Of a stretch of 64,000 bases of DNA, positions 9,001 through 59,133 are shown one piece after another. Source of the DNA: Methanobrevibacter millerae (GTDB taxonomy: Archaea > Methanobacteriota > Methanobacteria > Methanobacteriales > Methanobacteriaceae); the NCBI RefSeq assembly GCF_001477655.1, contig NZ_CP011266.1, positions 1,472,001-1,536,000 of the forward strand, in the 5' to 3' direction. The position numbers and the translations under genes were made by a program. Within the stretch, counting starts at the first letter, position 1. Every line of letters starts with the position of its first letter. The notes below the pieces were generated by a model, which was not told the origin of the DNA, ran no database searches, and saw only the letters and a program-made list of their open reading frames with translations.

Positions 9001-11091
9001 TCCTCTTTGAGGTTCAGGTGCCACAAACACATTACCGAATGTTAAACCCGGAATTACAAAGTATTGTGTTCCATTTCTCCAAACGGTCATAATATTGCCC
9101 GGAGCATCTCCCCAACCATTCAAACCAGGCACATTCAAATCAGCCCATTGCTTTTTATATTTTAAAAAAACATCATAATCTGATTCTAAACCTGTCTTTA
9201 AATACTGTTTTAAAGATGCAACAATATTATCTAAAATTGGAACTGCCTGAGAAGTATAATTGTCCGGAAGCAATGCAATAATTTCACTATACCATTCAGT
9301 CAGCCTCTCATCCATAGGATCTGTGTAATTAATGGCTATTGCATTTCTTGATAACTCACCAATATAAGCAACAGGCCCTTCCACAACCTGTAATTTAGAG
9401 ATAGGCTGTAAATTTTCAAACCATCCTATGTATTCAGAAACCGGAAGCAAGACTACATTAGACCTATTAGCTAATTTTTCAAGTTCACCTGGAGCCCATG
9501 TAGCTACATTAATACCGCATTTAATAATCATATCTTCCAATTGGCTGGTATTTTCTGGAAGTTCACCAACATCATATCCTTCAGTTTTCAAAGCAAGCAA
9601 AAGATTATAGATACTAGTTATTGAATCCAAGTAACTTGAACCGATATTTTGTTTTCCCGGAGGATAATTATAATAGATTAATGAGATTTTTTTATCTGCA
9701 TTTTCTGTATACTTCAAATCTATCCATGAAACAATACGATTAGTTAATAAATCAATGTTTGTATCATGTGGTTTGTATCCAGAACGTTCCGCACCAGTAT
9801 TAGGGGATATTTCATGAGTTACACCACCAACAAAAGTAGCTTCAATTATACCTTGTGCTTCACCAATGGCAACATGCCACCATTTGTCACTTCTGTTTCC
9901 TGGAAGACCTGTAGTACTTAATTCCCACTCACCATTATTCACATAATCTGAGTGGACAGCTCTAAATACTTGTACTCCGGCAGTTTCAAAAAATTCAGTT
10001 ACTTTATCAAATAATGTTCCTCCAATACCATAAGCAGGCATTGAAACGATTGCATCAACATGACTTTCATATTCTGATGGATTATCTAAAAATGATTGGT
10101 AATCTGGAGCATTGGTAAAATATTCAACCATGACTTTATATTGGTCATCTGAACCTCCTGCCGCTACAACAGGAATAACATTAGCACCTTTGGATTCTAA
10201 TGATTTTATTAATGCATAATACGGTTCTAAAGAAGCACTGGATACATACATATTACTTTCAAGCAAACCAACAGTATATTTTCTTGATGAATTGAAATAC
10301 TGCTTTTTGTATTCTTCCAATGACATATATTTTTCCCTATATATACCATATTGATAGGACTGATGGAAAACCGGATTAGCATACTGGCAATTAAAACCGC
10401 AGGTATTCAATGCCCATAATATCTGATTAATTTGATTTTCTTTATCATTGCAGTCTTTATATAAAACCGCCTGATTATATTTGGAATCCACTTTATTTCC
10501 ATTCCCATTGGTCAGATAATCATTTACAGATGTGTATGATTGTCCTCTTTTTGTTGTTTGGAAATATTCATTTAAAAAGTCGGCTGTGTATGTACTATCA
10601 TCGAAGATTTTATGATAATTTATAGTAGAATTTTTAACCAAATTAAATGTTTTAAGCTGTGAAGAAGAGGATGTTTCCAATATTAAAAACATTTCTTTAT
10701 TTGACAAATTAGGATATTTTAATAACAAATTTGTAAAAACAGAATCAGCATCTGTAGTTAACCAGTTTGCCATGACAATATCACTTTTATCAACAAGTTC
10801 ATAGAGTTCATCTTCTTTCATAGTAGAAATCTGATTTGAACTTCTAACCTGAATATTAACATTTGAATAGTTATTTAACACTTCATTAGCCGCTGAATCA
10901 AAAATATTTGTTCCTCCATTATCACTAATAAGCAACATAGATTTATCATATTGATTTGAATCAGCAGAGGTAATTGTATTATTATTATCCTGTGCAAATG
11001 AAATATTTAAACTACACATAATTAAAACAATTAAAATAGCTAAAATTGCTATATACTTAAAATTAAAAGTATTAAAATTACTCCTAATTAT
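6082..11091 (-). CDS. Secreted, membrane-anchored CobN/magnesium-chelatase-H-like protein
   Basis: A CobN-type protein of about 1650-1670 residues, longer than the usual cytosolic CobN of roughly 1250-1300. The family signature GRHATHEWLPGKEVLLSS lies mid-protein. CobN inserts cobalt into corrin rings using ATP with CobS/CobT, but neither partner is present here. The N-terminus is a signal peptide ending about SFAQ. The C-terminus has a long Ser/Thr/Asn linker, one membrane span (IICVIILVGIFAIGYF) and a short basic tail, so most of the protein should be outside the cell. A His/Asp-rich loop DHDDHEHDDDE (about residues 1080-1090 from the first Met) could bind metal. The first in-frame ATG (11019) splits the signal peptide, whereas an ATA at 11091 lies 7 bases after GGAGG. 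Acting as a metal/tetrapyrrole binding protein rather than a chelatase is my inference. Confidence 0.88.
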   Translation of the reverse strand: MIRSNFNTFNFKYIAILAILIVLIMCSLNISFAQDNNNTITSADSNQYDKSMLLISDNGGTNIFDSAANEVLNNYSNVNIQVRSSNQISTMKEDELYELVDKSDIVMANWLTTDADSVFTNLLLKYPNLSNKEMFLILETSSSSQLKTFNLVKNSTINYHKIFDDSTYTADFLNEYFQTTKRGQSYTSVNDYLTNGNGNKVDSKYNQAVLYKDCNDKENQINQILWALNTCGFNCQYANPVFHQSYQYGIYREKYMSLEEYKKQYFNSSRKYTVGLLESNMYVSSASLEPYYALIKSLESKGANVIPVVAAGGSDDQYKVMVEYFTNAPDYQSFLDNPSEYESHVDAIVSMPAYGIGGTLFDKVTEFFETAGVQVFRAVHSDYVNNGEWELSTTGLPGNRSDKWWHVAIGEAQGIIEATFVGGVTHEISPNTGAERSGYKPHDTNIDLLTNRIVSWIDLKYTENADKKISLIYYNYPPGKQNIGSSYLDSITSIYNLLLALKTEGYDVGELPENTSQLEDMIIKCGINVATWAPGELEKLANRSNVVLLPVSEYIGWFENLQPISKLQVVEGPVAYIGELSRNAIAINYTDPMDERLTEWYSEIIALLPDNYTSQAVPILDNIVASLKQYLKTGLESDYDVFLKYKKQWADLNVPGLNGWGDAPGNIMTVWRNGTQYFVIPGLTFGNVFVAPEPQRGWEADSDALYHSSAVAPTHQYLAAYYYFQEYYPQSMVFVGRHATHEWLPGKEVLLSSTDYGSIVVGDTPQIYFYISDGLGEGIQAKRRGFAVMISHLTSPLAYTQLYGNLTSLANLINEYENSLNQSSKDALVSEIRHLVETNNYVHSMGISNDTFNKLSSDDVVSTVDSFIKSVQNEIYTWGLHAIGQNWTDKDIGLSVSTALSQQFTYNGVTTSLYDEIAQIKYSKKYNELNSLERDIVMNLSSDVVISLIYYSSNEVAQVLGVNSSSLIAAFDYAKLYISLIKLSVNEEINSFIDALNGKYIAPGPAGDVLDVNSLPTGGNFFHDQSQELPTAEAYEYGSVLTLLALEGLTDDTEKLVMGIWCVETARDNGALISVVLYLLGMEPIYSSSPSAGGYVQVGNDEDHDDHEHDDDEVSVGVKTRIMPSVIKLNDLTRPDGWAKKRIDVTVITSGNFRDLYSTQAILMDNAFRVALARSYMYILDNDELMNSKWAKDIEEGLDQIMASVDYYGVGGESFEENYVAKHWINDFIYYKELGYNTTYAAECAITRIFAPPNGDYGAGIAKSVSLSWTWNDTDELADFYLGRMGNMYSRFYWGETNPLVFARALNNTNDLIVSRNTNVYGVLDNDDFFDYWGGLSMTMAYVNGNTPNMNVLMYGNKNTPYTTSIEQAIAKEILTRYSNPDWISGMMQEGYSGARYISNKFLTDLLGWSVTRPEAVSNYMWDDAYDVYFNDKYGIGVSDWLKTGNNNYAFISSAGTLLTAAYEGYWKTDSATLSNVANQWAEAVIANGVACCDCSCGNIAMMQWAVDFINPDLLAKFADQIFQATNHNFFNPANFQNNPNTDSADSQTDENSGMNTTNANVKSNTTSSTLKSDSATSGFNNGDTARGIGVTSSQSATASSASEINGPENTGEEGADSSSKSYEVEKSVSSSSTTTEKSMSIQLIICVIILVGIFAIGYFRNKNKQDEF

Positions 11092-11097
11092 TTTAAA

Positions 11098-11106
11098 ACC
11101 TCCTTT
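11098..11106 (-). promoter_or_regulatory. Ribosome binding site that fixes the CobN-like start
   Basis: On the minus strand this is AAAGGAGGT. The only start-like codons at a normal distance are ATA (7 bases on, 11091) and ATT (10 bases on, 11088). There is no in-frame ATG, GTG or TTG before 11019. Confidence 0.7.
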
Positions 11107-46128: not shown

Positions 46129-49100
46129 CTAATTAATAATAATTGTATTTGAAATTGTACAACCATTATAACTAGAAGAAATTATATATTTTCCAGCCAT
46201 CAAATTAATGTTTAAATAAGCAAATCCATTTTTATCAGTCATACGATTATAAAAGACCCCATTAATATTGAATTTAATTGATTTATCAGCAAATGGCTTT
46301 CCATTGCCATCCAAAAGAAGTATTCTGAATTTGCTTCCGTCCCTATATTTCATCTTCAAATCATCAGCAGACAGCACATGAAGAACAGTAATTTTGTTAG
46401 TGATTCTAAGGCCGTTTGGATGGATTGCAGTCAAAATATACTCCCCCGGAGCCAAATTGATATTCAAACGAGCAATACCTAAATCATTAGTTGTGCGTGT
46501 GTAAAATACTCCATTGATATTCATTGTAACATTCTTATTGACTAAAGGATTACCTTTATCATCCAATAATTGCACACAATACTGAGTATCATTTTTATAA
46601 TATTTCACAATATCTGCACCCATTATTGTTGGAAGAACTGTGATATTAAATGATTCTGCAAAATTGCCGTATGGATTATATGCCGTTAAAATATACTCAC
46701 CAGGAACAAGATTGATGTTCAACCGAGCAATACCTTCATCATTCGTAACCCTATTATAAAACACACCATTGATATTCATAGTTACGTTTTTTCCGACAAT
46801 AGAAGAACCAGTACCGTCAATAATTTTCACATAGAATTGAGAATCATTTTTATAGTATTTTACCAGATTATCTCCAAAAATAACTGGAAGAACAGTAATT
46901 TTAGCAACTGCAAATGAATTCTCTTCAGGATTATCTGCATAATATGCACAGGCAATTGAATAATTACCTGGATTTAAATTTATATTAAATGTAATCCATC
47001 CACCTTTATCACTGGTACGGACATATTCTTGTCCATTAATAGTTATGTTAATTCTTTTTCCAGACAATGGATTTCCCAAGTAATCCACCAGCTGTGCATT
47101 GAACTGGGTTCCGTTTCTGTAATATTTGACAATATCATAAGCAAAAATATAAGTAAGATTACCTGATATGATTATTGTATCATCAAAGCTGGATTCCTTA
47201 TAAGCTGGGTTTCCGTTGAATGCAGCATGAATTTCATATATTCCTCCGTTTGAACCTAAATTGATAAATACATCGCCATTGCCATCAGTTGAAACATTAT
47301 AATTTTTATCATTGACCTTCACATTTACAGCAGCATTGGCAATTCCCACACCATTATCATCAACCAAAGAAAGTTTATATGTGGTGTTTATCAATACACC
47401 GTTGAAACTGGAATTTTTAAGAACAGAATATGATAGAACAGTAATATTAAATGATTCAAGCAGCCCGTCATAAGGATTCTGAACTGTTATATCATATGTT
47501 CCAGGCTCCAAATCAATATTCAATCTTGCAGTTCCATTCTCATCAGATAAACATGTATAGAATATTCCGCTTAAGTTCATTGAAATATTTTTATTAGCAA
47601 TAGGAGTTCCGTCACCCTGCAATAGTTTTACTCTGAACTGTGAAGAATCCATATAGTATTTCACCAAATCTTGACCAATGACTGTAGAAAGTACAGTGAT
47701 TGTAGATGTCTTATATGCATTTTCAGATACATTATCAGAGACATATGATGTGGCCACGTTATAAAATCCTGGCTTTAAGTCTATCTTTAAGCTGACCCAA
47801 CCATTTTTATCAGTTATGTTGGTGTAATTTGTACCGTTAATGGATATTGTCAGCAATTTATCAGATAATGGTGAACCTAAATAATCTAAGAGCTGCGCAT
47901 AAAATTGAGTTCCGTTCCGGTAATATTTAACCAGATTAAATACAAACAAGTAAGTTGAATTGCCTGAAATGACTGTGGAATCTGAAGTTTCAGATTTTTC
48001 ATAAGTGTTATCCCCATCAAATATAGCATGGATATTATACATACCTGCAATGAATCCTAAATCAACATTTGAAATACCATTTTTATCAGTTACTCCAGAA
48101 TAGCTTTTATTGTTGATTTTAAATATTATTTGTTTTCCTGAAAGCAGATTATTATATTCATCAATGAGAATAACTTCATAGGTGTTGTTTTGTAAAAAAT
48201 TACCTTTTAAAATTGTTTTGGTTAAGTTATCTGAAGGTAAAACCTTAATATAATTTGTTGTAAAGCTTTCAAGGTATTTCTGTGAACCCGCATAAGCAGC
48301 AGATACCAGATAATCACCATATTTTAACCTGAATCTGAATAATGCTTCACCTGAATTATCCGTATTCTTTTGATAGGAATTGATTAATTCACCAGTTATT
48401 GTTGAAACATTGATTAAAATATTTGCTCCAGTAATTGGATTATCCAACAAATCCTTTAAAACAACTTTAAATTCTAAACTTTCATTATCACAAGTCGTTT
48501 GATCTTTTCCATTGAGATAAGTTGAGGTTTTATCTGAATCAACAACCAATATTCGAGCATCAGATTTGGATGATATGTAATTAGCTGCACTCATAGAAAA
48601 TGAAGCCAAATAATTTCCAATTCCTTTATTGATTAATAAACGTGCCAATCCTTCATTATTTGTTGTTACATTGTATTTTGTACCATTAATATCAACATTT
48701 ATTGGCATATTTGTTAAAGGATGATTATTTTTATCCTTCAAGAATATTTCCAAATACTTATTGTCTCCAACCTTCATTATAACATCAGAGGCATATATTG
48801 AAGTCGGCATATCATAAACAAGAATATTATTAGTTTTTTCACAAAATATTCCATAATATTCATTGGTATAACGATAAGTAATGTTGTAAGTACCAGGAAG
48901 GAGCTTGATTTGCATACGTGCTTGGCCGAATGCATCAGTTGTCAATTTATATGTTTCTACAATTTTATCTGAAGAAATTGTTGCAAGAATTGTTTTACCA
49001 TACTGACTGAAAGCATTAGGGTCATTGAATGAAATTACAAAGTATTTATTCTCACTATAATATTGTGCCAGGTCACTTGCATTCATTGAAATCTGTTCTA

Positions 49101-52100
49101 TTACAGTTTTGTTGCTTACAATAATTGTAGCGGCAGCTGTTGAATCTTCATACCAGATATTTCCTGCATAATCCAAAGTTGCCAGATATGAACCTTCATT
49201 TTCATTTATTACAAATGTTGCAGCACCGTTTCCATCAGTAACACGACTTAAAGTTTTAATTACGTTTCCTTTGTATAAATTCATAATTATTGTTTCATTT
49301 GGAATGAATCTGCCATACATATCACTCAAGACAACATCATAAACTCCGTTTATTGGTATTGTTACATGATGGAATCCTGAAATGATTGAAATAACCTTTT
49401 CAATAGTTATTACTGCTGAACCCTCAGCTGATCCATAAATATTATCTCCAGCATATGTTGCCCGAATATTATAATTGCCTGGAAGATAGTTTATCGTAAG
49501 CTGTGCAACACCATCATTATTTGTTCTCAAGGAGAACTTATCTGAGAGATTTCCCTGTGTAATTACAACATTGATATTTTCACCGCGTATCAGTGTTCCA
49601 TGCTCATCTTTCAATGTGATGTTATAGACATTGCCTGTTCCATAAAATACAACATCCGGTACATCAATGGTTGAATTTACAGGACGAATGGTTATTTGTG
49701 ATTTTGATTTTGAAGGCAAATACCATGCATCACCGTTGAAGCTTGCTTCAATATTATATTTTCCAACATCCAGACTCAACAATAAATCTGCACGGCCAAA
49801 TTCATTTGTAACTGCATCAACAGTTTTAATCTCACCTTTTGAATTGACTATTTTGAATTGAATTGTTCTGTTTATTATTCCGTAACCGTTCACATCATTC
49901 AAAATTGCATTGAAATTATTGTTTTTACCGTAATATGTCTTGTTTTGAGTTACAACATATGTTGGAGATGATAAAACATTGACATATGCAGTATTATTTG
50001 ATGCTTCGAAATAACCGTTTCCATTATAATAGACATTTATTGTATATAAACCTACAGGATACTGGAAATTAAACTCATAGTATCCGTTATCATCGCTTAT
50101 GACATCAAATGTTACTGTTTTGTTTTTAGAATCTAAAATTTCAACTGTCAATGTCTGGTTTGATATTTTATATGAATTTACATTGATTAGATTAAATCCA
50201 TACCTGTTGTTTCCACCATAAAATACTGAATTTTCCATCAGTATCATTGTACTTGTATCAACTAAAGATAAATCAAGAATCTGATTGTCGATTCTTGCAA
50301 AAACATTCACATCTTTTGAGGTGTCAGCATGAGTAATGTTTGCATAAAGAATATTATTTGAGAGTGTTGAATTAAGTGGCTGTATAATTGCATTAAGACA
50401 TGATAAAAATACAGGTCTTTGATTAATAACATAATTTAATTTAACAACTTTCCCATTTTCATCCACCAATGAATCTAAAGCAACTTTTATGCTGTCTTTA
50501 GATAGATTAACTAAACTCATTACTATCCAGTTGTCCAATTTCAAATTGCCTAAGAACAGATAGATCTTTTTGGAGTTAGGCTTTTGATTGTCACCCCACC
50601 AATTAGATGAATAGTCCACATCACCAGAATATGAAAATATGTCATTACCTTCATAATAAGCACTGTTATTTACAAAGACAGAATAATGAACCTCTTTTGC
50701 ATTGTATAATGCACCGCCATAAGCCGCATTGTTTGAAATGAATGTGGAATTTATAACGGTATCTGCAGTTACAAGGCCATCCCCTTTATATGAATTTCCT
50801 TCTTTTATGATATTGGAATTGTTTTCAAAGTAGGAATTATTCACTTCCAATGATTTTATGGCAGCTAATTTGTTTCCAACAAAAACTGATGAATTGATTG
50901 AGTTAAAACGACCTAAAGGACCATAATTATTTACAAATACAGAATTATTAATAAATCCAGCAAAGGAACCGTGGTCTTCTGAAATGTAAAATCCATAGGT
51001 ATCAGAGTAATAATTCATGGAGTTGAACTTAAATGTGTTGTCAATGAATGATGAGTTTTCAACATATGCATAACTTGAATATGATGAATATTCAGACAAT
51101 GAAGCTGACAATACCACAATAGGATGCATATAAATAATACCCAATTCATTTTTTCTAAAAATTGAATTGTAAATCTCTATAGAACCATCAATTGGAAAGA
51201 GATAATTATAATTTTTATATATTGCATTAGTATAATATTTTGAGGCTGATTCAACTGTAATATTATTTACATAAAAACTGGCACTTCCAGTCATTATTGC
51301 ACCTCTGTTTTTATAGAATGATGAATTGATAACTTCAACCACCCCTCTACCGTCAATGATTGATGAGGATTCTACATTTTCAAATTTGGAATTTTCAATA
51401 GCTAATTTACCTCCGTTTACCACAAATAGTGAATCACCATACCCCTGAGAAAGAACTGTAAAAGTAATATTTTTTATTGTAAGGCTTCCCCATGACTGTA
51501 TTCTGAATATGTTTCGTGCATTATCCCTGCTCATTACTGCAGATTCTAAACCTACAATGGTCAAATTCTTATTAATTACCAAATTTGAATTGGCACTGTA
51601 TGAATATGTTCCATTAAGCAGATAAATTGTATTTCCATTTAATGCCTTGTTGATTGTAAAGTCCAATGTTTGGTAAGGAGATTCATAACTTCCATCACCA
51701 TATCCATTACTTCCCCTAGTTGGAGAGACATACAATTCATAATCAGTTAATCCAGTACCAACTACTAATCTAAGTCTTTGAGAGTCTATTATTGCATAAA
51801 CAAGTGAACTTTCCGTGTTTTCCAATAAATAATTATTGAATACAGCATTTGATAAAAATGCACTACCCTGTTGGAATCTTCCGTTTTGTGATTCAAATTT
51901 TACTTGCCTTATAGGAAGCAAGTCCACATCATCCAATTTGAATAATGATTTGCCGTCACTGTATTTATTTAGACTAACAGTGAATGGATCCGCTGTTCCT
52001 ACAGGAATTGGTGAATTTTTATTTTCAAAAGTCATTACAATCCAATTATCTGCAGAAGTTTTTGCATATTGAATATTAGGACCATGATTATCTCCCCACC

Positions 52101-53196
52101 AGTTTAAAGGAGCATAAACTTCACTTATACCACCATTGCCACTGACAGTACCCAAAATAATACTGTAAGTTACATTAACTTTTGATGAAAATGAATTTAT
52201 CCCATCATTGAATATTGATGAAACAGCATTTAATGTAGAGTTAGATAACAAAAAGGAATTTGAAAATCTTCCGCTTAAAGTAGTGACTCTATTGAAAGTT
52301 ACATTGGAATTGTGAATTCTTAACTCGCCAAAGGTAGAATTGAATGCAGTTAAAATTCCATTTTCTTGCTGTAAATTGTTAATGATGGAGTTTTCAACAT
52401 TGATGTTAATCCCGTAATTTTTTCCACTATCATAATCATAATTAGAAATCAATTGCCCAACTTTTGAATTTTTAACGCTGATTGATTTAGCATTATATAA
52501 TGTAGCCTCCACACCATTGCCTGATTTGAAATTCAAATTTGAATTTGAAATTGTTGCATTTCCAAGATTAACTAGTACCTGAGCCAATGTTGAAGAAGAA
52601 ATATCACTGAATTGTGAGTTATATATTCTTAAATCAGCATTGTTAAAGATAAGACCCATAAAAGAACTCATCTTTTTAAATGATACATGATCTAAAGCCA
52701 AATCACCATAATTTGTAATGATAGCAGTATTTTTTGAATTTACATCAGCAAAACCGTTGATAAAAGTCAAATTATACAATTTTAGAGAATTGGAATTTAA
52801 AATATTGAAAAATCCATATTTATTTTCACCGTCAATGACAACATTTCCTGACATTGACTGTATAGTTAAATTCTTATCAATCGTTAAAGCATTGTTTAAA
52901 GAACCTTTATAGGTACCTTCCATCAAAATAATAGTTGAATTATCTCCACCAGATTGAATAGCTTCGTTTAAATTTGAATATGGAGCATCATAACTACCAT
53001 TTGCATATCCGTTATTCGAAACATTTACATAAATTTCATTATGATTTATTCCTATAACATTATCAACAGAATTTGATATTAAATCCTGTGATATTGTTAT
53101 ATTTTCCTCTGTAGCACTAACAAAGGATAATGAAAGAATAAAAATTAATAATAATGAAAAATATAGAATTATATTATTATATTTAATTTTTAACAC
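46129..53196 (-). CDS. Giant secreted adhesin-like protein with many Ig-like repeats, 2355 aa
   Basis: The signal peptide is within residues 1-30 (ends FVSATEE). Two beta-helix blocks open with YVNVSNNGYANGSYDAPY (near 55) and YVSPTRGSNGYGDGSYESPY (near 490). From about 1000 the protein becomes a long array of Ig-like/Big domains of 85-95 residues, many with YYRNGTQF or YKNDSQF openings and a NINGVFYNR core. This array is longer than in its neighbours and ends in the same C-terminal module type (SADDLKMKYRDGSKF). The listed start is a GTG that overlaps the GAGG ribosome site itself. An ATT at 53187, 8 bases after that GAGG and still before the hydrophobic core, is a plausible real start. Adhesion is inferred from architecture. 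Confidence 0.87.
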   Translation of the reverse strand: MLKIKYNNIILYFSLLLIFILSLSFVSATEENITISQDLISNSVDNVIGINHNEIYVNVSNNGYANGSYDAPYSNLNEAIQSGGDNSTIILMEGTYKGSLNNALTIDKNLTIQSMSGNVVIDGENKYGFFNILNSNSLKLYNLTFINGFADVNSKNTAIITNYGDLALDHVSFKKMSSFMGLIFNNADLRIYNSQFSDISSSTLAQVLVNLGNATISNSNLNFKSGNGVEATLYNAKSISVKNSKVGQLISNYDYDSGKNYGININVENSIINNLQQENGILTAFNSTFGELRIHNSNVTFNRVTTLSGRFSNSFLLSNSTLNAVSSIFNDGINSFSSKVNVTYSIILGTVSGNGGISEVYAPLNWWGDNHGPNIQYAKTSADNWIVMTFENKNSPIPVGTADPFTVSLNKYSDGKSLFKLDDVDLLPIRQVKFESQNGRFQQGSAFLSNAVFNNYLLENTESSLVYAIIDSQRLRLVVGTGLTDYELYVSPTRGSNGYGDGSYESPYQTLDFTINKALNGNTIYLLNGTYSYSANSNLVINKNLTIVGLESAVMSRDNARNIFRIQSWGSLTIKNITFTVLSQGYGDSLFVVNGGKLAIENSKFENVESSSIIDGRGVVEVINSSFYKNRGAIMTGSASFYVNNITVESASKYYTNAIYKNYNYLFPIDGSIEIYNSIFRKNELGIIYMHPIVVLSASLSEYSSYSSYAYVENSSFIDNTFKFNSMNYYSDTYGFYISEDHGSFAGFINNSVFVNNYGPLGRFNSINSSVFVGNKLAAIKSLEVNNSYFENNSNIIKEGNSYKGDGLVTADTVINSTFISNNAAYGGALYNAKEVHYSVFVNNSAYYEGNDIFSYSGDVDYSSNWWGDNQKPNSKKIYLFLGNLKLDNWIVMSLVNLSKDSIKVALDSLVDENGKVVKLNYVINQRPVFLSCLNAIIQPLNSTLSNNILYANITHADTSKDVNVFARIDNQILDLSLVDTSTMILMENSVFYGGNNRYGFNLINVNSYKISNQTLTVEILDSKNKTVTFDVISDDNGYYEFNFQYPVGLYTINVYYNGNGYFEASNNTAYVNVLSSPTYVVTQNKTYYGKNNNFNAILNDVNGYGIINRTIQFKIVNSKGEIKTVDAVTNEFGRADLLLSLDVGKYNIEASFNGDAWYLPSKSKSQITIRPVNSTIDVPDVVFYGTGNVYNITLKDEHGTLIRGENINVVITQGNLSDKFSLRTNNDGVAQLTINYLPGNYNIRATYAGDNIYGSAEGSAVITIEKVISIISGFHHVTIPINGVYDVVLSDMYGRFIPNETIIMNLYKGNVIKTLSRVTDGNGAATFVINENEGSYLATLDYAGNIWYEDSTAAATIIVSNKTVIEQISMNASDLAQYYSENKYFVISFNDPNAFSQYGKTILATISSDKIVETYKLTTDAFGQARMQIKLLPGTYNITYRYTNEYYGIFCEKTNNILVYDMPTSIYASDVIMKVGDNKYLEIFLKDKNNHPLTNMPINVDINGTKYNVTTNNEGLARLLINKGIGNYLASFSMSAANYISSKSDARILVVDSDKTSTYLNGKDQTTCDNESLEFKVVLKDLLDNPITGANILINVSTITGELINSYQKNTDNSGEALFRFRLKYGDYLVSAAYAGSQKYLESFTTNYIKVLPSDNLTKTILKGNFLQNNTYEVILIDEYNNLLSGKQIIFKINNKSYSGVTDKNGISNVDLGFIAGMYNIHAIFDGDNTYEKSETSDSTVISGNSTYLFVFNLVKYYRNGTQFYAQLLDYLGSPLSDKLLTISINGTNYTNITDKNGWVSLKIDLKPGFYNVATSYVSDNVSENAYKTSTITVLSTVIGQDLVKYYMDSSQFRVKLLQGDGTPIANKNISMNLSGIFYTCLSDENGTARLNIDLEPGTYDITVQNPYDGLLESFNITVLSYSVLKNSSFNGVLINTTYKLSLVDDNGVGIANAAVNVKVNDKNYNVSTDGNGDVFINLGSNGGIYEIHAAFNGNPAYKESSFDDTIIISGNLTYIFAYDIVKYYRNGTQFNAQLVDYLGNPLSGKRINITINGQEYVRTSDKGGWITFNINLNPGNYSIACAYYADNPEENSFAVAKITVLPVIFGDNLVKYYKNDSQFYVKIIDGTGSSIVGKNVTMNINGVFYNRVTNDEGIARLNINLVPGEYILTAYNPYGNFAESFNITVLPTIMGADIVKYYKNDTQYCVQLLDDKGNPLVNKNVTMNINGVFYTRTTNDLGIARLNINLAPGEYILTAIHPNGLRITNKITVLHVLSADDLKMKYRDGSKFRILLLDGNGKPFADKSIKFNINGVFYNRMTDKNGFAYLNINLMAGKYIISSSYNGCTISNTIIIN

Positions 53197-53295
53197 CTCA
53201 AAATTTTATCATTTTAATGATAAAAGTCCATAATGTTTTAAGTTATGTTTGAAGTATTATAAAAAACTATTTAAAAAAAGAAGAAAAAGAATGAC

Positions 53296-56200
53296 TTAAT
53301 ATTCATCATCACTCTTTCGCTTATAACCAAATATTAACAAGAAAACTAGGATAATTACAAGCAGTATTGATAAATAAATTGCCATATCATCATCAATTTT
53401 CTTATCTACAGATTTATCCTCAATTTCATATGCATTTAAAGAATCACTTGAACTGGAAGATGAAGATGATTCACCTTCTGATGATTCTCCGGAACTTGAT
53501 GCAGATGGAGAAGTAGCGGAAATAGCATTGGATACTAAACCAAAAGTATCTAAAGACTCGTCAAATTGAGAGCTATTTACCTTACTTACACTATTACCCT
53601 GAGCAGTACCATTCTGTGCATTTATATTACTATTCCTTCCATTTCCACCAGAATTTATATCTGGATTAACAGAATTATCATTGTTTCTTGGATTGTAAGA
53701 AGGAATATTCTGATAGATAAACTCAGGATTTCCAGTATTTGTATTAGGATTTGGACTAGGAAGTGGAATGCCAATAACTTTAGCCACCACATCGTCAATT
53801 AAATTTCCTGACGGATTAGGATTAGGCAATCCTGGACCGCTATACTGTCCACCATCACCATCACCCAAATTAAATCCCTGACCCTCATGATTGCCATTCG
53901 GTCCGATTACATTACCGCTATAACCTCCTTCGGAATTGCCAGTTCCCCTTCCAATATTTGCATTTGTAGATGGATGTGAATTTGTTTGTGTAGGATTAAC
54001 CACACTTGGAGTATCACCTCCAGTATCCTGAGGATTAACTGGAGATGCAGGACCATCACCATTATCTTCATCTTCTTTTGGAGTAATCCATGAGACAATT
54101 TCACTCAATCTGGAACCAAGTCTCATGTTAGGGAAATTGTAAACAGAATCATCAGCATTAGCTGGACGTCCATTTAATTGTGTAGGACCCCAGTAGTTAT
54201 ATCTCATATCCGCAACTACTCTTGAGCTGTCACTTGTTATATAAGCTGAAGATATAGTACTTGATTCAGGAGCAAAATTATTATAAATGTTGGATTGATG
54301 CACTGTAATGTTAGCTTGTCCAACACGCATAGCGCCACCAGAAATTAAAGCCATATTGTCTGATATCGTTGAATTATAAATATTCAAATTATTTTGGACA
54401 TGACCATAGTAATAGTAAGAATCATAGCTTAAAGCTCCACCATATCTTGCTGAATTATTGGTGATTACAGTTCTAGTAATTAGGAAGTTGTTTGAAATGA
54501 ACAAAGCTCCACCAGTACTTCCTGCACGGTTTCCAACAAAATTACAAAAGTCAATTAATGCATCTGGTGATTGTACATATAATGCACCACCATCATTTAC
54601 TGCCTGATTATCAATGAAATTTGAATTAAGGGCATTAAATTTATTGAATGCACCGTAAACAGCCCCACCATCATGATTATTATTGTATAAATAATTATCT
54701 GCAAAACCACCATTTTGTACTTTAGTATCCTCTGCACGATTGTTTATAAATGAAGAATTTGTTATAATTAAATCAGCATTGGATTTAGCAGTGTTTGATG
54801 CTCCAACATACTTTGTAGCTATTGCACCACCTTTATGAGCAGAATTTTTATTGAATACTGTATTATCAATTATTAGGCCTGTGTTATTGGAATAAATCGC
54901 ACCACCTTCCCCAACAGGTAAGTTACACATTGAAGAATATGAATATGTTACTCCAGTAACAGACCATGTTGAAACTGCTTTTCTAATCATACAATAATCA
55001 AATGTAGTGATTGCTTTATTGTCATAAAATATTGTATTGTTTACAATCAAATCATGAACTGAATCTGTGTAAATCGTTCCTCCATGAACACCTTGATTCG
55101 CATATAAAACTGAAGAATTTATTATTATCTTACCAAAATCTGCTATTGCACCACCGATATGAGCCAGATTTCCATATATGAATGCATTTTCAATAATCAA
55201 ATTGCCATAATTTAAAATTGCACCACCTTTACCGGTATCTCTGCAGTCAATAGTGTATGCATGATCTTCATCCACCTCATTATCAAATGAAGGATTTGAA
55301 TTATCATAATATGAAGAGGAATTACATAATGTTGAATTATTAATGATTAAATAACCATTATTTATAAATAATGATCCTCCATTCACATTATGACCATTTC
55401 TAAATACAATATTGTTAACTGTTAAAATACCTGATTTTGATATAGTAAATAGCTGTTTTAAATCTGCATCAATGATTACATTTCCATCAAAACCAGTAAT
55501 TGTAATGTTTTTATTAACATCCAAATCAGATTCGAAATAAATTCCTCCTCCAACATAAATTACTGCATTGTTCAGTGCATTTTTCAATGCATGACCTATG
55601 CTCGCAAAAGGATTTGATTGGCTACCGTCACCAGTAATGTCACTACCATTTATTGATACAAATATATTATATGGAGTATTGTCGGTTACCAAATCATATT
55701 TGGCATTAACTGCATAATTGGAACGTTTAGACCCATTACTGCTTATCAAATAATTTTCAATTATCCTATTTGACAGGTTCGTATCGGAAATTATTTCAAC
55801 AGCATAATCATCAGCATTTAAAGAATTGGATATGATTCTATTATCAAATACATGATTATTAGATGATTTGTCTGATAGATAAATACCTGATTGATTTGTA
55901 ACTAAGGAATTACCATTAATTTTAATATCATTAGATATTATTGAATTGTAATGGGAGTTCAATGCATAATAACCAAATATTTCAGATGCGTTACCAAGAA
56001 TTATATTATCTCCAATAAGTGAATTATTTGAATTAGAAGAAATGATAAAAATCAATTTATCACCAATACCAGTGAAATGATTATTCAATACACTAATATT
56101 TTGAGAATTATTGATAATTAATGCATCAGATTTTGAATCTATATTGAACATATTATCAGATAATAAATCTGACAATGTATTATTCATTTTTATTATAGAA

Positions 56201-59085
56201 TTACTGATTGTATTATTTACCAAACAATTGCCATATCCTTCATCAATTAAAATTAAACTTCCATTAAAAGTATTGTTTAAAATATCCAATTTTGAAACGT
56301 TATTCAATTGAATGGTTGAGTTGACAAATTTGATATTTGACATGTTGGAATTATTTGAACCCTCATCGAATATCAAAATCACAGTATTATCCAAATTAGA
56401 TTTGTAACTTGAAACATTAACCGGAACATCAATTATTAACTTCTGATTATCTGATAAATTTAAAAGCAATGTATCATTTTGCCTGACAAAAGTTGAATTC
56501 AATTTGGGATTGAAATAAATGCCATAATTCAATTGACTAATAACATGAGTATTAGCAGTTAAATTGATTATGGATTCATTTTCAATGATATTTATTGGAT
56601 TTGTTCCATTTGAATAAATCGTATTATTTATAATGCTTACATTATCACAATGCTCGGAAACTAGAATTGCACTGCAACCCTGACCGATGACATCGAAAAC
56701 ATAATCCATTGTAATGTTATTTCCAAAAATGTCCAAAATGTTATTTGCAATTGAAATATTATTTGACCTGTATGATGCAATACCATAACTTCCGCCACTT
56801 TGTGAGAAAAGATAATTATTTTCAATATTCATTGAATCAGACATGTGCAATTCAATCAGGTAGGCCATTTTATCTGCATGAATGATTATTTCATTGTATG
56901 AAACATTCCACCCATAAAGCCTGCCGATTACATTTACAGCAGCAATTCCATATCCACAGTCATCAGAAACAATATTGATTTTATTACCAATAACTTCACT
57001 TTCAACAATAGCATCAGAAAATATAGCTTCACCCATATATGAAGTTATCATAATTATAGTATTATTGTTGATTTTATAATTTTTAGAAAATTCCCTATTA
57101 TAAATATATGAACGTGGACTATATGATGAAATACTGATTCCATATGCATAATCAATTTTCGAATTGACATAAATGTTATTGTTTGATATGATATTATCTT
57201 CACCAACTCCACAAACAAAAATTGCTGAGTCATAATCAGTCTTTTTCTTAAACATTGATGTTATATTATTGTTGACAACACTCATATCATTAACACCATC
57301 CAAAACAACAGCACTTTTATCATAATTGATAAAATTAAAATCCCTAATCAATGAACCTGAAGCGTCATCTTCAAAGGTTATTGTAACATTGAATAACAAA
57401 TTATTCTGCTTGTTGCTGACAACATTAATCTTTTCATTGAAGAAAATATTTTTATTTGAAATGAAAGTGAAAAATATTGTTTTGGTTGCATTTGCCTTGA
57501 ATGTATAATTCAAATATCCGTCCTCATCAAAATATTCATAGAAATTATCATCATCGATAACTAAAGCAGTAGCATCATATATAACACCATTGACCATATT
57601 GTCTGAATCAATATCTGCAACTGCATCAGTGATATCCTTATATATACCAACACTAGCATTAGTTTCAATGACATTGGATGAAATAGTTGTATAGTATACT
57701 AAACCTTTAAGATATATTCCATAACTGTCACTGGTAATCTTATTGTTGGATATTGTATTATTATAATACCTATCAGTACCAGAAGTTGTAATGGATACTC
57801 CTCTTGTATTAGTAATAATTATATTATTATCAACAGTATCATTATTACCATATATTGTAACTGCATCATCATGACTTGACTTGACTTTATTGTTATGAAC
57901 AGTAGAATAATTACCTACAATAGCTATGGCATTTCCATAATTATCTACACTTATAGTATTGCCATATACATCAAGATTGTTTCCTACATGCAAAGCCTCT
58001 TCAACATCAACATATGAAATATCATTTCGGGTAATAATGCCTGTTGTGCCTTCACTGCCATATACTGCTAGACCTATTTTTTGACTTGAACCGTATATGG
58101 TATTATCACAAACTGAAATATTTGCACCATTAACAGCAATTCCAACAGCACTACCATTTACATTATTGCCGTGAACTTGGGCATTGCTTCCCATTACATT
58201 AATACCGTAAGATCCCTTTGAAATGGTATTGTTTGCAATTACGGTATTTTCATGGTTTGCATAAACTGCCTGAATTATAATTGACATAGGCAATGTACAA
58301 AAGCCTATTAATTCATTGTAAGATATTGTGCATCCTTCACATAATGCAGTGTCAAGTCTGCCTGCAAATGCGAATGGAGAGAAATAAATCAAATTGGTAA
58401 CAGACATGTCTGAATAGCTCAATACTTCGATTTTATTTCTTGAAATAAAGTTATAATGACTGTTTGACATGATGATGTTTGATGAAACATATGTTTTCAT
58501 GTCATTGTAGACAATATTGTTCCTGCTTGATGAATGCATTGGAAGGGCATAGACTCCACCAGAGTTAGCAATTCTAATAACATTATAAGAAATGGTATTG
58601 TTGCTGGTATCAGATAACCATATTCCATGCAAATAGCCTACCTGATTGGAATTAATTGACAAAACAGCTTCTGTATTGTTGATTGTAAGTCCTGTTACTA
58701 TTGAACCGTCACTGCCTTTAATCAAATGGATAAATCCATTAGAAATTTGATCAGATGAACTGTTAGGCATTATTGTCAATTGACGGTCTATAACAAAACC
58801 TCTATCAGATATATTAGCTATTTTTAATACATCACCTGATTTGATATCTGCATCCTTTTTAATTTCACCAGTATATTTATTAAAATAATTATCATATGAA
58901 TCCTGATTAATTTCAATTGTTTTTCCTGAAATTGAATCACCAAACAATTCATTGACAACTGCCGAATCATTTAAATTATTAGCACCATACAAATCATCTG
59001 TCTGATTAGTTGCAAATACCATATTTAATGATAAGATAAATAAACAAATTAACATTAATGAAATCAAAATATTCTGTTTTCTTAT
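53296..59085 (-). CDS. Giant beta-helix surface protein with C-terminal membrane anchor, about 1929 aa
   Basis: The signal peptide ends about NMVFA. Residues to about 1130 are NosD-like beta-helix repeats with many 'NNTI' and 'GNxI' turns. A DUF1565-type motif (FVSINGSDITGDGSQSNPF) opens a Pmp-like helix to about 1600 with NNSARYGGALSYDS-type repeats. A Gly/Asn/Pro/Ser-rich linker follows, then one membrane span (YLSILLVIILVFLLIFGY) and a basic tail. It lacks the C-terminal modules of the other adhesins, so anchoring is by membrane, as in the CobN-like protein. TTG at 59067 leaves the signal peptide without its basic end and is 25 bases from GGAGG. ATA at 59085, exactly 7 bases after GGAGG, gives a full signal peptide beginning with Arg-Lys after the start, so I use it. 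Confidence 0.85.
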   Translation of the reverse strand: MRKQNILISLMLICLFILSLNMVFATNQTDDLYGANNLNDSAVVNELFGDSISGKTIEINQDSYDNYFNKYTGEIKKDADIKSGDVLKIANISDRGFVIDRQLTIMPNSSSDQISNGFIHLIKGSDGSIVTGLTINNTEAVLSINSNQVGYLHGIWLSDTSNNTISYNVIRIANSGGVYALPMHSSSRNNIVYNDMKTYVSSNIIMSNSHYNFISRNKIEVLSYSDMSVTNLIYFSPFAFAGRLDTALCEGCTISYNELIGFCTLPMSIIIQAVYANHENTVIANNTISKGSYGINVMGSNAQVHGNNVNGSAVGIAVNGANISVCDNTIYGSSQKIGLAVYGSEGTTGIITRNDISYVDVEEALHVGNNLDVYGNTISVDNYGNAIAIVGNYSTVHNNKVKSSHDDAVTIYGNNDTVDNNIIITNTRGVSITTSGTDRYYNNTISNNKITSDSYGIYLKGLVYYTTISSNVIETNASVGIYKDITDAVADIDSDNMVNGVIYDATALVIDDDNFYEYFDEDGYLNYTFKANATKTIFFTFISNKNIFFNEKINVVSNKQNNLLFNVTITFEDDASGSLIRDFNFINYDKSAVVLDGVNDMSVVNNNITSMFKKKTDYDSAIFVCGVGEDNIISNNNIYVNSKIDYAYGISISSYSPRSYIYNREFSKNYKINNNTIIMITSYMGEAIFSDAIVESEVIGNKINIVSDDCGYGIAAVNVIGRLYGWNVSYNEIIIHADKMAYLIELHMSDSMNIENNYLFSQSGGSYGIASYRSNNISIANNILDIFGNNITMDYVFDVIGQGCSAILVSEHCDNVSIINNTIYSNGTNPINIIENESIINLTANTHVISQLNYGIYFNPKLNSTFVRQNDTLLLNLSDNQKLIIDVPVNVSSYKSNLDNTVILIFDEGSNNSNMSNIKFVNSTIQLNNVSKLDILNNTFNGSLILIDEGYGNCLVNNTISNSIIKMNNTLSDLLSDNMFNIDSKSDALIINNSQNISVLNNHFTGIGDKLIFIISSNSNNSLIGDNIILGNASEIFGYYALNSHYNSIISNDIKINGNSLVTNQSGIYLSDKSSNNHVFDNRIISNSLNADDYAVEIISDTNLSNRIIENYLISSNGSKRSNYAVNAKYDLVTDNTPYNIFVSINGSDITGDGSQSNPFASIGHALKNALNNAVIYVGGGIYFESDLDVNKNITITGFDGNVIIDADLKQLFTISKSGILTVNNIVFRNGHNVNGGSLFINNGYLIINNSTLCNSSSYYDNSNPSFDNEVDEDHAYTIDCRDTGKGGAILNYGNLIIENAFIYGNLAHIGGAIADFGKIIINSSVLYANQGVHGGTIYTDSVHDLIVNNTIFYDNKAITTFDYCMIRKAVSTWSVTGVTYSYSSMCNLPVGEGGAIYSNNTGLIIDNTVFNKNSAHKGGAIATKYVGASNTAKSNADLIITNSSFINNRAEDTKVQNGGFADNYLYNNNHDGGAVYGAFNKFNALNSNFIDNQAVNDGGALYVQSPDALIDFCNFVGNRAGSTGGALFISNNFLITRTVITNNSARYGGALSYDSYYYYGHVQNNLNIYNSTISDNMALISGGAMRVGQANITVHQSNIYNNFAPESSTISSAYITSDSSRVVADMRYNYWGPTQLNGRPANADDSVYNFPNMRLGSRLSEIVSWITPKEDEDNGDGPASPVNPQDTGGDTPSVVNPTQTNSHPSTNANIGRGTGNSEGGYSGNVIGPNGNHEGQGFNLGDGDGGQYSGPGLPNPNPSGNLIDDVVAKVIGIPLPSPNPNTNTGNPEFIYQNIPSYNPRNNDNSVNPDINSGGNGRNSNINAQNGTAQGNSVSKVNSSQFDESLDTFGLVSNAISATSPSASSSGESSEGESSSSSSSSDSLNAYEIEDKSVDKKIDDDMAIYLSILLVIILVFLLIFGYKRKSDDEY

Positions 59086-59092
59086 GTTTTCA

Positions 59093-59097
59093 CCTCC
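59093..59097 (-). promoter_or_regulatory. Ribosome binding site pointing to an ATA start
   Basis: On the minus strand GGAGG (within AAAGGAGGTG) lies 7 bases before ATA at 59083-59085. The nearest canonical in-frame start, TTG at 59067, is 25 bases away. Confidence 0.65.
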
Positions 59098-59133
59098 TTT
59101 TAAGTCAATTATAGAAATTCAATAAATTTTATT

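Follow-up and report, generated by a model that had tools for sequence, protein, structure and literature searches.

In Methanobrevibacter millerae, the gene of a large surface adhesin very probably starts at a genuine ATA codon, as one of a few genes of the order Methanobacteriales that begin with AUA, AUU or AUC (together AUH). A Shine-Dalgarno site would place the ribosome at these codons, and a methionyl initiator tRNA with the anticodon CAU would tolerate the mismatch and initiate weakly. Judged from comparisons of orthologues, all three codons appear to be real and conserved start codons in these archaea, and the phenomenon seems to extend beyond AUA and beyond giant secreted proteins. 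Directly supported are the position, spacing and reading frame of these codons, their conservation, and their interchange with AUG between orthologues. The adhesin gene was found in a stretch of 64,000 nucleotides (contig NZ_CP011266.1, positions 1,472,001 to 1,536,000), referred to as the window, and the coordinates given below without a locus label are those of the window (Table 1).

The adhesin gene lies on the minus strand, where the region around its start reads gacttaaaaGGAGGTGAAAAC-ATA-AGA-AAA-CAG. The original prediction had described GGAGG, seven bases, ATA, Arg-Lys (AGA AAA) and a complete signal peptide, and both the sequence and its translation bear this out. The gene thus has a start other than AUG, GUG or UUG at normal Shine-Dalgarno spacing (GGAGG-N7-ATA, where N7 stands for seven bases). 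The upstream in-frame stop is 11 codons from the ATA, with no ATG, GTG or TTG in the interval. The product had been called a membrane-anchored adhesin, in agreement with the NosD (PF05048) and Beta_helix (PF13229) domains, i.e. right-handed beta-helix repeats, recognised by Pfam, and with a C-terminal hydrophobic segment followed by KRK. Being large, secreted, built with beta-helix repeats and C-terminally anchored, the product of 53296..59085 has the features of methanogen adhesin-like proteins.

Table 1. Coordinates of start-site features and coding sequences in the window
Feature	Position	Strand	Basis and remarks
Adhesin Shine-Dalgarno site GGAGGTGA	59097-59090 (GGAGG, 59097-59093)	-	Sequence; kept in L207, L208, L210, L211, L215, L222, L223
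Adhesin start codon ATA	59085-59083	-	7 bases after GGAGG; orthologue conservation
Adhesin-like CDS, 1929 residues, secreted, C-terminally membrane-anchored	53296..59085	-	Translation
Adhesin signal peptide (M)RKQNILISLMLICLFILSLNMVFA	59011..59085	-	Translation, by eye; complete only if read from ATA
TTG, first canonical codon downstream in the adhesin	59067..59065	-	25 bases from GGAGG
CobN-like gene, Shine-Dalgarno GGAGG	11099..11103	-	Sequence, orthologues
CobN-like gene, start codon ATA	11091-11089	-	GGAGGTTTTAAA-ATA; orthologue conservation
Secreted CobN/Mg-chelatase-like CDS, 1669 residues	6082..11091	-	Pfam PF02514, E 3e-214
Giant secreted protein 46129-53187, candidate ATT start	53185..53187	-	GAGGTG-TTAAAA-ATT (53185-53199); in-frame GTG 53196 overlaps the Shine-Dalgarno site

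An initial search of the genome contigs with the adhesin gave no confirmed relative. Relatives spanning the N-terminus were identified in 20 of the 67 genus members. The codon located 7-8 bases past the Shine-Dalgarno site of these orthologues is ATA in six, ATT in five and ATC in seven, i.e. AUH occupies the start position in 18 of 20. The single plain ATG belongs to L209, and the L205 gene is ambiguous, with ATG at five bases and ATT at eight. The AUH codon is followed by Lys, Arg or Asn, then by Lys or Arg, and then by a hydrophobic core, so that a basic n-region is conserved. Whether orthologues carry ATG elsewhere had been named as a check on the original prediction; they retain ATA, ATT or ATC at the same Shine-Dalgarno distance. 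Third-base neutrality in a genome of 31% GC could be partly responsible for the near absence of a third-base G in the adhesin. A second adhesin family (L049 and its relatives) also has mostly ATA, ATT or ATC after GGAGGTG, and TTT or TTA stands in their place in a few members (L268, L275 and L276).

The strongest case of a conserved AUH start is gatB, the only GGAGG-N7-ATT candidate in an 864-kb sample of the genome that heads a recognised gene. The 59 distinct gatB sequences came from the genus, from further genera of its family and from two additional families of Methanobacteriales. In 57 of them the Shine-Dalgarno site (GGAGG, in one case GGGGG) is followed after seven bases by an in-frame ATT (51), ATA (5) or ATC (1), while the remaining two (L251 and L380) carry ATT after eight. 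ATG, GTG or TTG occupies this position in none of the 59 sequences. The persistence of AUH in gatB throughout the order implies long-term selection on the identity of the start codon, and, as a single base change would restore AUG, it suggests selection for weak initiation.

Gene callers take only ATG, GTG or TTG, and an in-frame canonical codon is always present a few codons downstream of AUH (TTG 59067 in the adhesin, ATG in gatB and in the CobN-like gene). It is improbable that this codon is the true start and AUH incidental, since the downstream codons lie at variable and unfavourable distances from the Shine-Dalgarno site, whereas the spacing of AUH is constant throughout an order. The first downstream ATG of gatB is found after 13, 16, 19, 25 or 34 bases, so its distance appears unconstrained. 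The predicted GatB peptide between AUH and the downstream canonical codon (e.g. SDDVDMMCGLEIHVQLETESK) also seems to be encoded by translated codons: in the 29 gatB sequences of the genus with ATG after 25 bases, most of the variation in the five codons that separate ATT from ATG falls on synonymous third positions (AGT/AGC, GAC/GAT, GTC/GTT/GTA), as in coding sequence. Downstream starts would, moreover, remove the basic n-region. The original prediction had pointed to both the 25-base distance and the lost basic end of the adhesin TTG; both were found at 59067, and on these grounds this codon was ruled out as the main adhesin start.

In 12 AUH-carrying species, including M. millerae, the interval that runs from the upstream stop to the AUH of the adhesin gene contains no canonical codon, and the nearest upstream stops are only four (L206) and three (L219) codons away. 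The same interval is free of canonical codons in 55 of the 59 gatB sequences. Five adhesin orthologues (L212, L213, L214, L216 and L217) have a GTG in frame that overlaps their Shine-Dalgarno site, and that of L218 has other in-frame canonical codon(s) upstream of AUH. The AUH codon might then be an internal isoleucine codon, conserved as an amino acid in a frame begun upstream, e.g. at the GTG within GGAGGTG, and the synonymous exchange of ATA, ATT and ATC does resemble a conserved isoleucine. This reading is very unlikely and seems largely refuted by the orthologues, not only by the intervals devoid of canonical codons. The frame that passes through the adhesin Shine-Dalgarno site is not constant between species, so an overlapping GTG cannot be a start common to the adhesins, and in a further gene, encoding a macro-domain protein, ATH and ATG swap at this place.

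The macro-domain protein (L005/L144) is cytosolic, and its gene has a GGAGG-N7-ATA start. Of 20 genus members, 11 have ATG at the aligned start, eight have ATA, ATT or ATC, and one has a shifted start; the Shine-Dalgarno context is conserved. Placed on a maximum-likelihood tree, the start label changes at least three times, with two of the changes forced by well-supported branches. Other in-frame canonical codons occur upstream in L144 and L147.

A second gene of the window had been claimed to share the layout of GGAGG, seven bases and ATA, and this is the CobN-like gene, with ATA at 11091. Its first ATG is 24 codons in, within the signal peptide. GGAGG-N7-ATA is retained in the close orthologues L099, L100, L101, L104, L118 and L134, while L102 and L133 have ATT and the more distant L103 has ATG. 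The start codons of this clade are therefore ATA in seven, ATT in two and ATG in one case, i.e. ATA or ATT in nine of 10. The argument that two giant secreted genes speak against chance stood as far as chance is concerned, on the evidence of the orthologues; the tie to secreted giants did not, as gatB and the macro-domain gene encode cytosolic proteins. The giant protein encoded at 46129-53187 possibly starts at GTG 53196 or at AUU.

Further candidates were found in other loci. In L084, which represents another family of the order, a signal peptide is encoded behind GGAGGTGATTGA-ATA at position 1513 (plus strand). An apparent relative (L087:1513, minus strand) reads ATA-ATG at the corresponding place, suggestive of a shift of the start codon. 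The LGIGNE motif is found in hydrogenase maturation proteases; a protein with this motif (L176:1999, plus strand) has AGGTGATTTT-ATT and no ATG ahead of its conserved core, and is a candidate for an AUU start. Rejected as starts were an ATA with an apparent signal peptide (L007:1513 / L168:13561, plus strand), which heads a 150-residue C-terminal DUF4143 fragment, probably a pseudogene with a signal-peptide mimic, and the ATA sites in TrpB-like (L006), QueE-like (L047) and other long frames, which are internal codons. The alignment of L025 relatives stopped short of the N-terminus.

Raw motif counts were obtained for the whole genome of 2,543,538 bases, with the reversed pattern as a control. 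GGAGG-N7-ATA occurs 58 times (45 reversed) and GGAGG-N7-ATG 84 times (12 reversed); with six and eight bases before ATA the counts are 57 vs 42 and 47 vs 54, respectively. By itself the raw genome-wide GGAGG-ATA excess is weak. A frame filter, which kept open frames of 60 codons or more that have no canonical start further upstream in frame, was applied to the 864-kb census sample, composed of the window and a systematic set of 40 stretches of 20 kb. Seven bases after GGAGG, this left ATG 15 times, ATA four times, TTG three times and each other codon at most once. Omission of the window, which had been picked for the feature, gave 15 ATG, two ATA and two TTG, and one of these two ATA sites (L168) heads the DUF4143 fragment. 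The excess that the original prediction had expected of a genome scan is therefore small in the raw counts, and after frame filtering ATA is second only to ATG at GGAGG-N7. From the filtered counts AUH starts are rare: based on this one-third sample, we estimate that each genome has only a few of them behind strong Shine-Dalgarno sites. No excess of AUH was observed in a census of weaker, 6-base Shine-Dalgarno motifs, nor were other genus members enriched in GGAGGTGA-N4-ATA. It is the conservation in orthologues, not the counting of motifs, that appears to settle the question of the ATA start.

Inspection of the initiator tRNA genes, also proposed with the original prediction, revealed nothing unusual. 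There is a single, standard initiator tRNA with the anticodon CAU, an A1-U72 pair and a GGG/CCC anticodon stem. Of two further CAU tRNAs, one contains an intron and was taken as the elongator for methionine, and the other was taken as the AUA-reading tRNA-Ile. No initiator-like tRNA with a non-CAU anticodon or otherwise unusual features was seen. The A1-U72 end pair, a hallmark of archaeal initiator tRNAs, was also observed in tRNA-Ile(GAU) (L336:1500-1575, minus strand).

This pair, and the fact that all three AUH codons specify isoleucine, could indicate that a different tRNA, isoleucyl or otherwise, initiates at AUH and that the proteins begin with Ile. There is little likelihood of this, because AUA on the one hand and AUU and AUC on the other require two distinct elongator tRNAs for isoleucine, yet exchange freely; AUG is found at the same sites, and the initiator tRNA is ordinary. 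An artefact of sequencing or assembly, or decay of the start codon in a single genome, for which one transition from ATG to ATA would suffice, is scarcely conceivable and seems refuted by the orthologues: AUH stands at the same positions in many genomes that were assembled independently, also as ATT or ATC, with long intact frames downstream.

The free interchange of AUA, AUU, AUC and AUG makes a third-base-tolerant Met-tRNAi the simplest mechanism for genuine AUH starts. Strong Shine-Dalgarno pairing would position the ribosome at AUH, where the CAU anticodon would pair with A and U and the mismatch at the third base would be tolerated. Staphylococcus aureus initiates in this manner at its AUA and AUU codons (PMC13009471). 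Such weak codons would probably give low, possibly tunable expression, and initiation at them may respond to initiation fidelity, in archaea to aIF1. Beyond initiation with methionine, we infer reduced efficiency and a purpose in dosage control, the latter with more confidence in the case of gatB than in that of the adhesin. Against a low-expression purpose stands the abundance of adhesin-like proteins, taken as a class, in vesicles from related species (PMC12134236). A more speculative and rather doubtful extension is a Methanobacteriales AUH-start regulon (gatB, adhesins, CobN-like and other genes), in which one fidelity signal would co-tune surface display and tRNA amidation; the signal may be the level of aIF1, the supply of initiator tRNA or rRNA modification.

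Gene callers limited to ATG, GTG and TTG would truncate AUH proteins and strip their signal peptides, so that adhesins from methanogens of the gut and rumen can be mistaken for non-secreted proteins. Surface adhesins of these methanogens are studied as methane-mitigation and vaccine targets. Natural archaeal genes with AUH starts also make discrimination based on aIF1 testable.

Conserved AUA, AUU and AUC starts have so far been known from a handful of bacterial genes. The infC gene starts with AUU in Escherichia coli and with ATC in Streptomyces (PMC5472188), and pcnB with AUU according to a reference given in PMC13009471. As in infC, pcnB and ccpN, the AUH codons described here follow a Shine-Dalgarno site and are conserved in orthologues (adhesin 18 of 20, CobN clade 9 of 10, gatB 59 of 59), with coding evidence directly after AUH in the synonymous variation of gatB codons 2-6 and in the adhesin n-region. 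Like gatB, infC is translation-related. However, infC and pcnB are bacterial, belong to other gene families and are repressed by IF3, and an autoregulatory logic is not evident for gatB or the adhesin. In Staphylococcus aureus, infC, ccpN and citZ start with AUA and cvfC1 with AUU (PMC13009471). These starts likewise stand behind strong extended Shine-Dalgarno sites, are conserved in ccpN and cvfC1, and reach about 10% of the AUG output in poor medium (PMC13009471). They have been demonstrated experimentally in a bacterium, whereas the evidence from the methanogens is comparative, although it covers a whole order of archaea. Streptomyces sigR, with a GTC start, was misannotated since gene callers accept only ATG, GTG and TTG (PMC5472188); it resembles the present genes in having a start that such callers would miss, and differs in the first base of the codon (GUC), in its control by IF3 and in serving to balance two proteins.

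Annotated switches from AUG to AUU were found once in 61,358 cases across 36 groups of bacterial and archaeal genomes (PMC5622118). No archaeal precedent for conserved AUH starts was found in the literature available, most subscription journals being outside its scope. Non-canonical starts are policed by IF3 in bacteria (PMC5472188); archaea are devoid of IF3, and aIF1 discriminates against such starts (PMC6237735). Haloferax cells that lack the rRNA dimethylase KsgA/Dim1 have raised levels of proteins with non-AUG starts (PMC7897474). The AUH starts of Methanobacteriales would thus follow the same principle as the bacterial ones, and what appears new is the other domain of life, the other fidelity factor, the gene families and the order-wide conservation.
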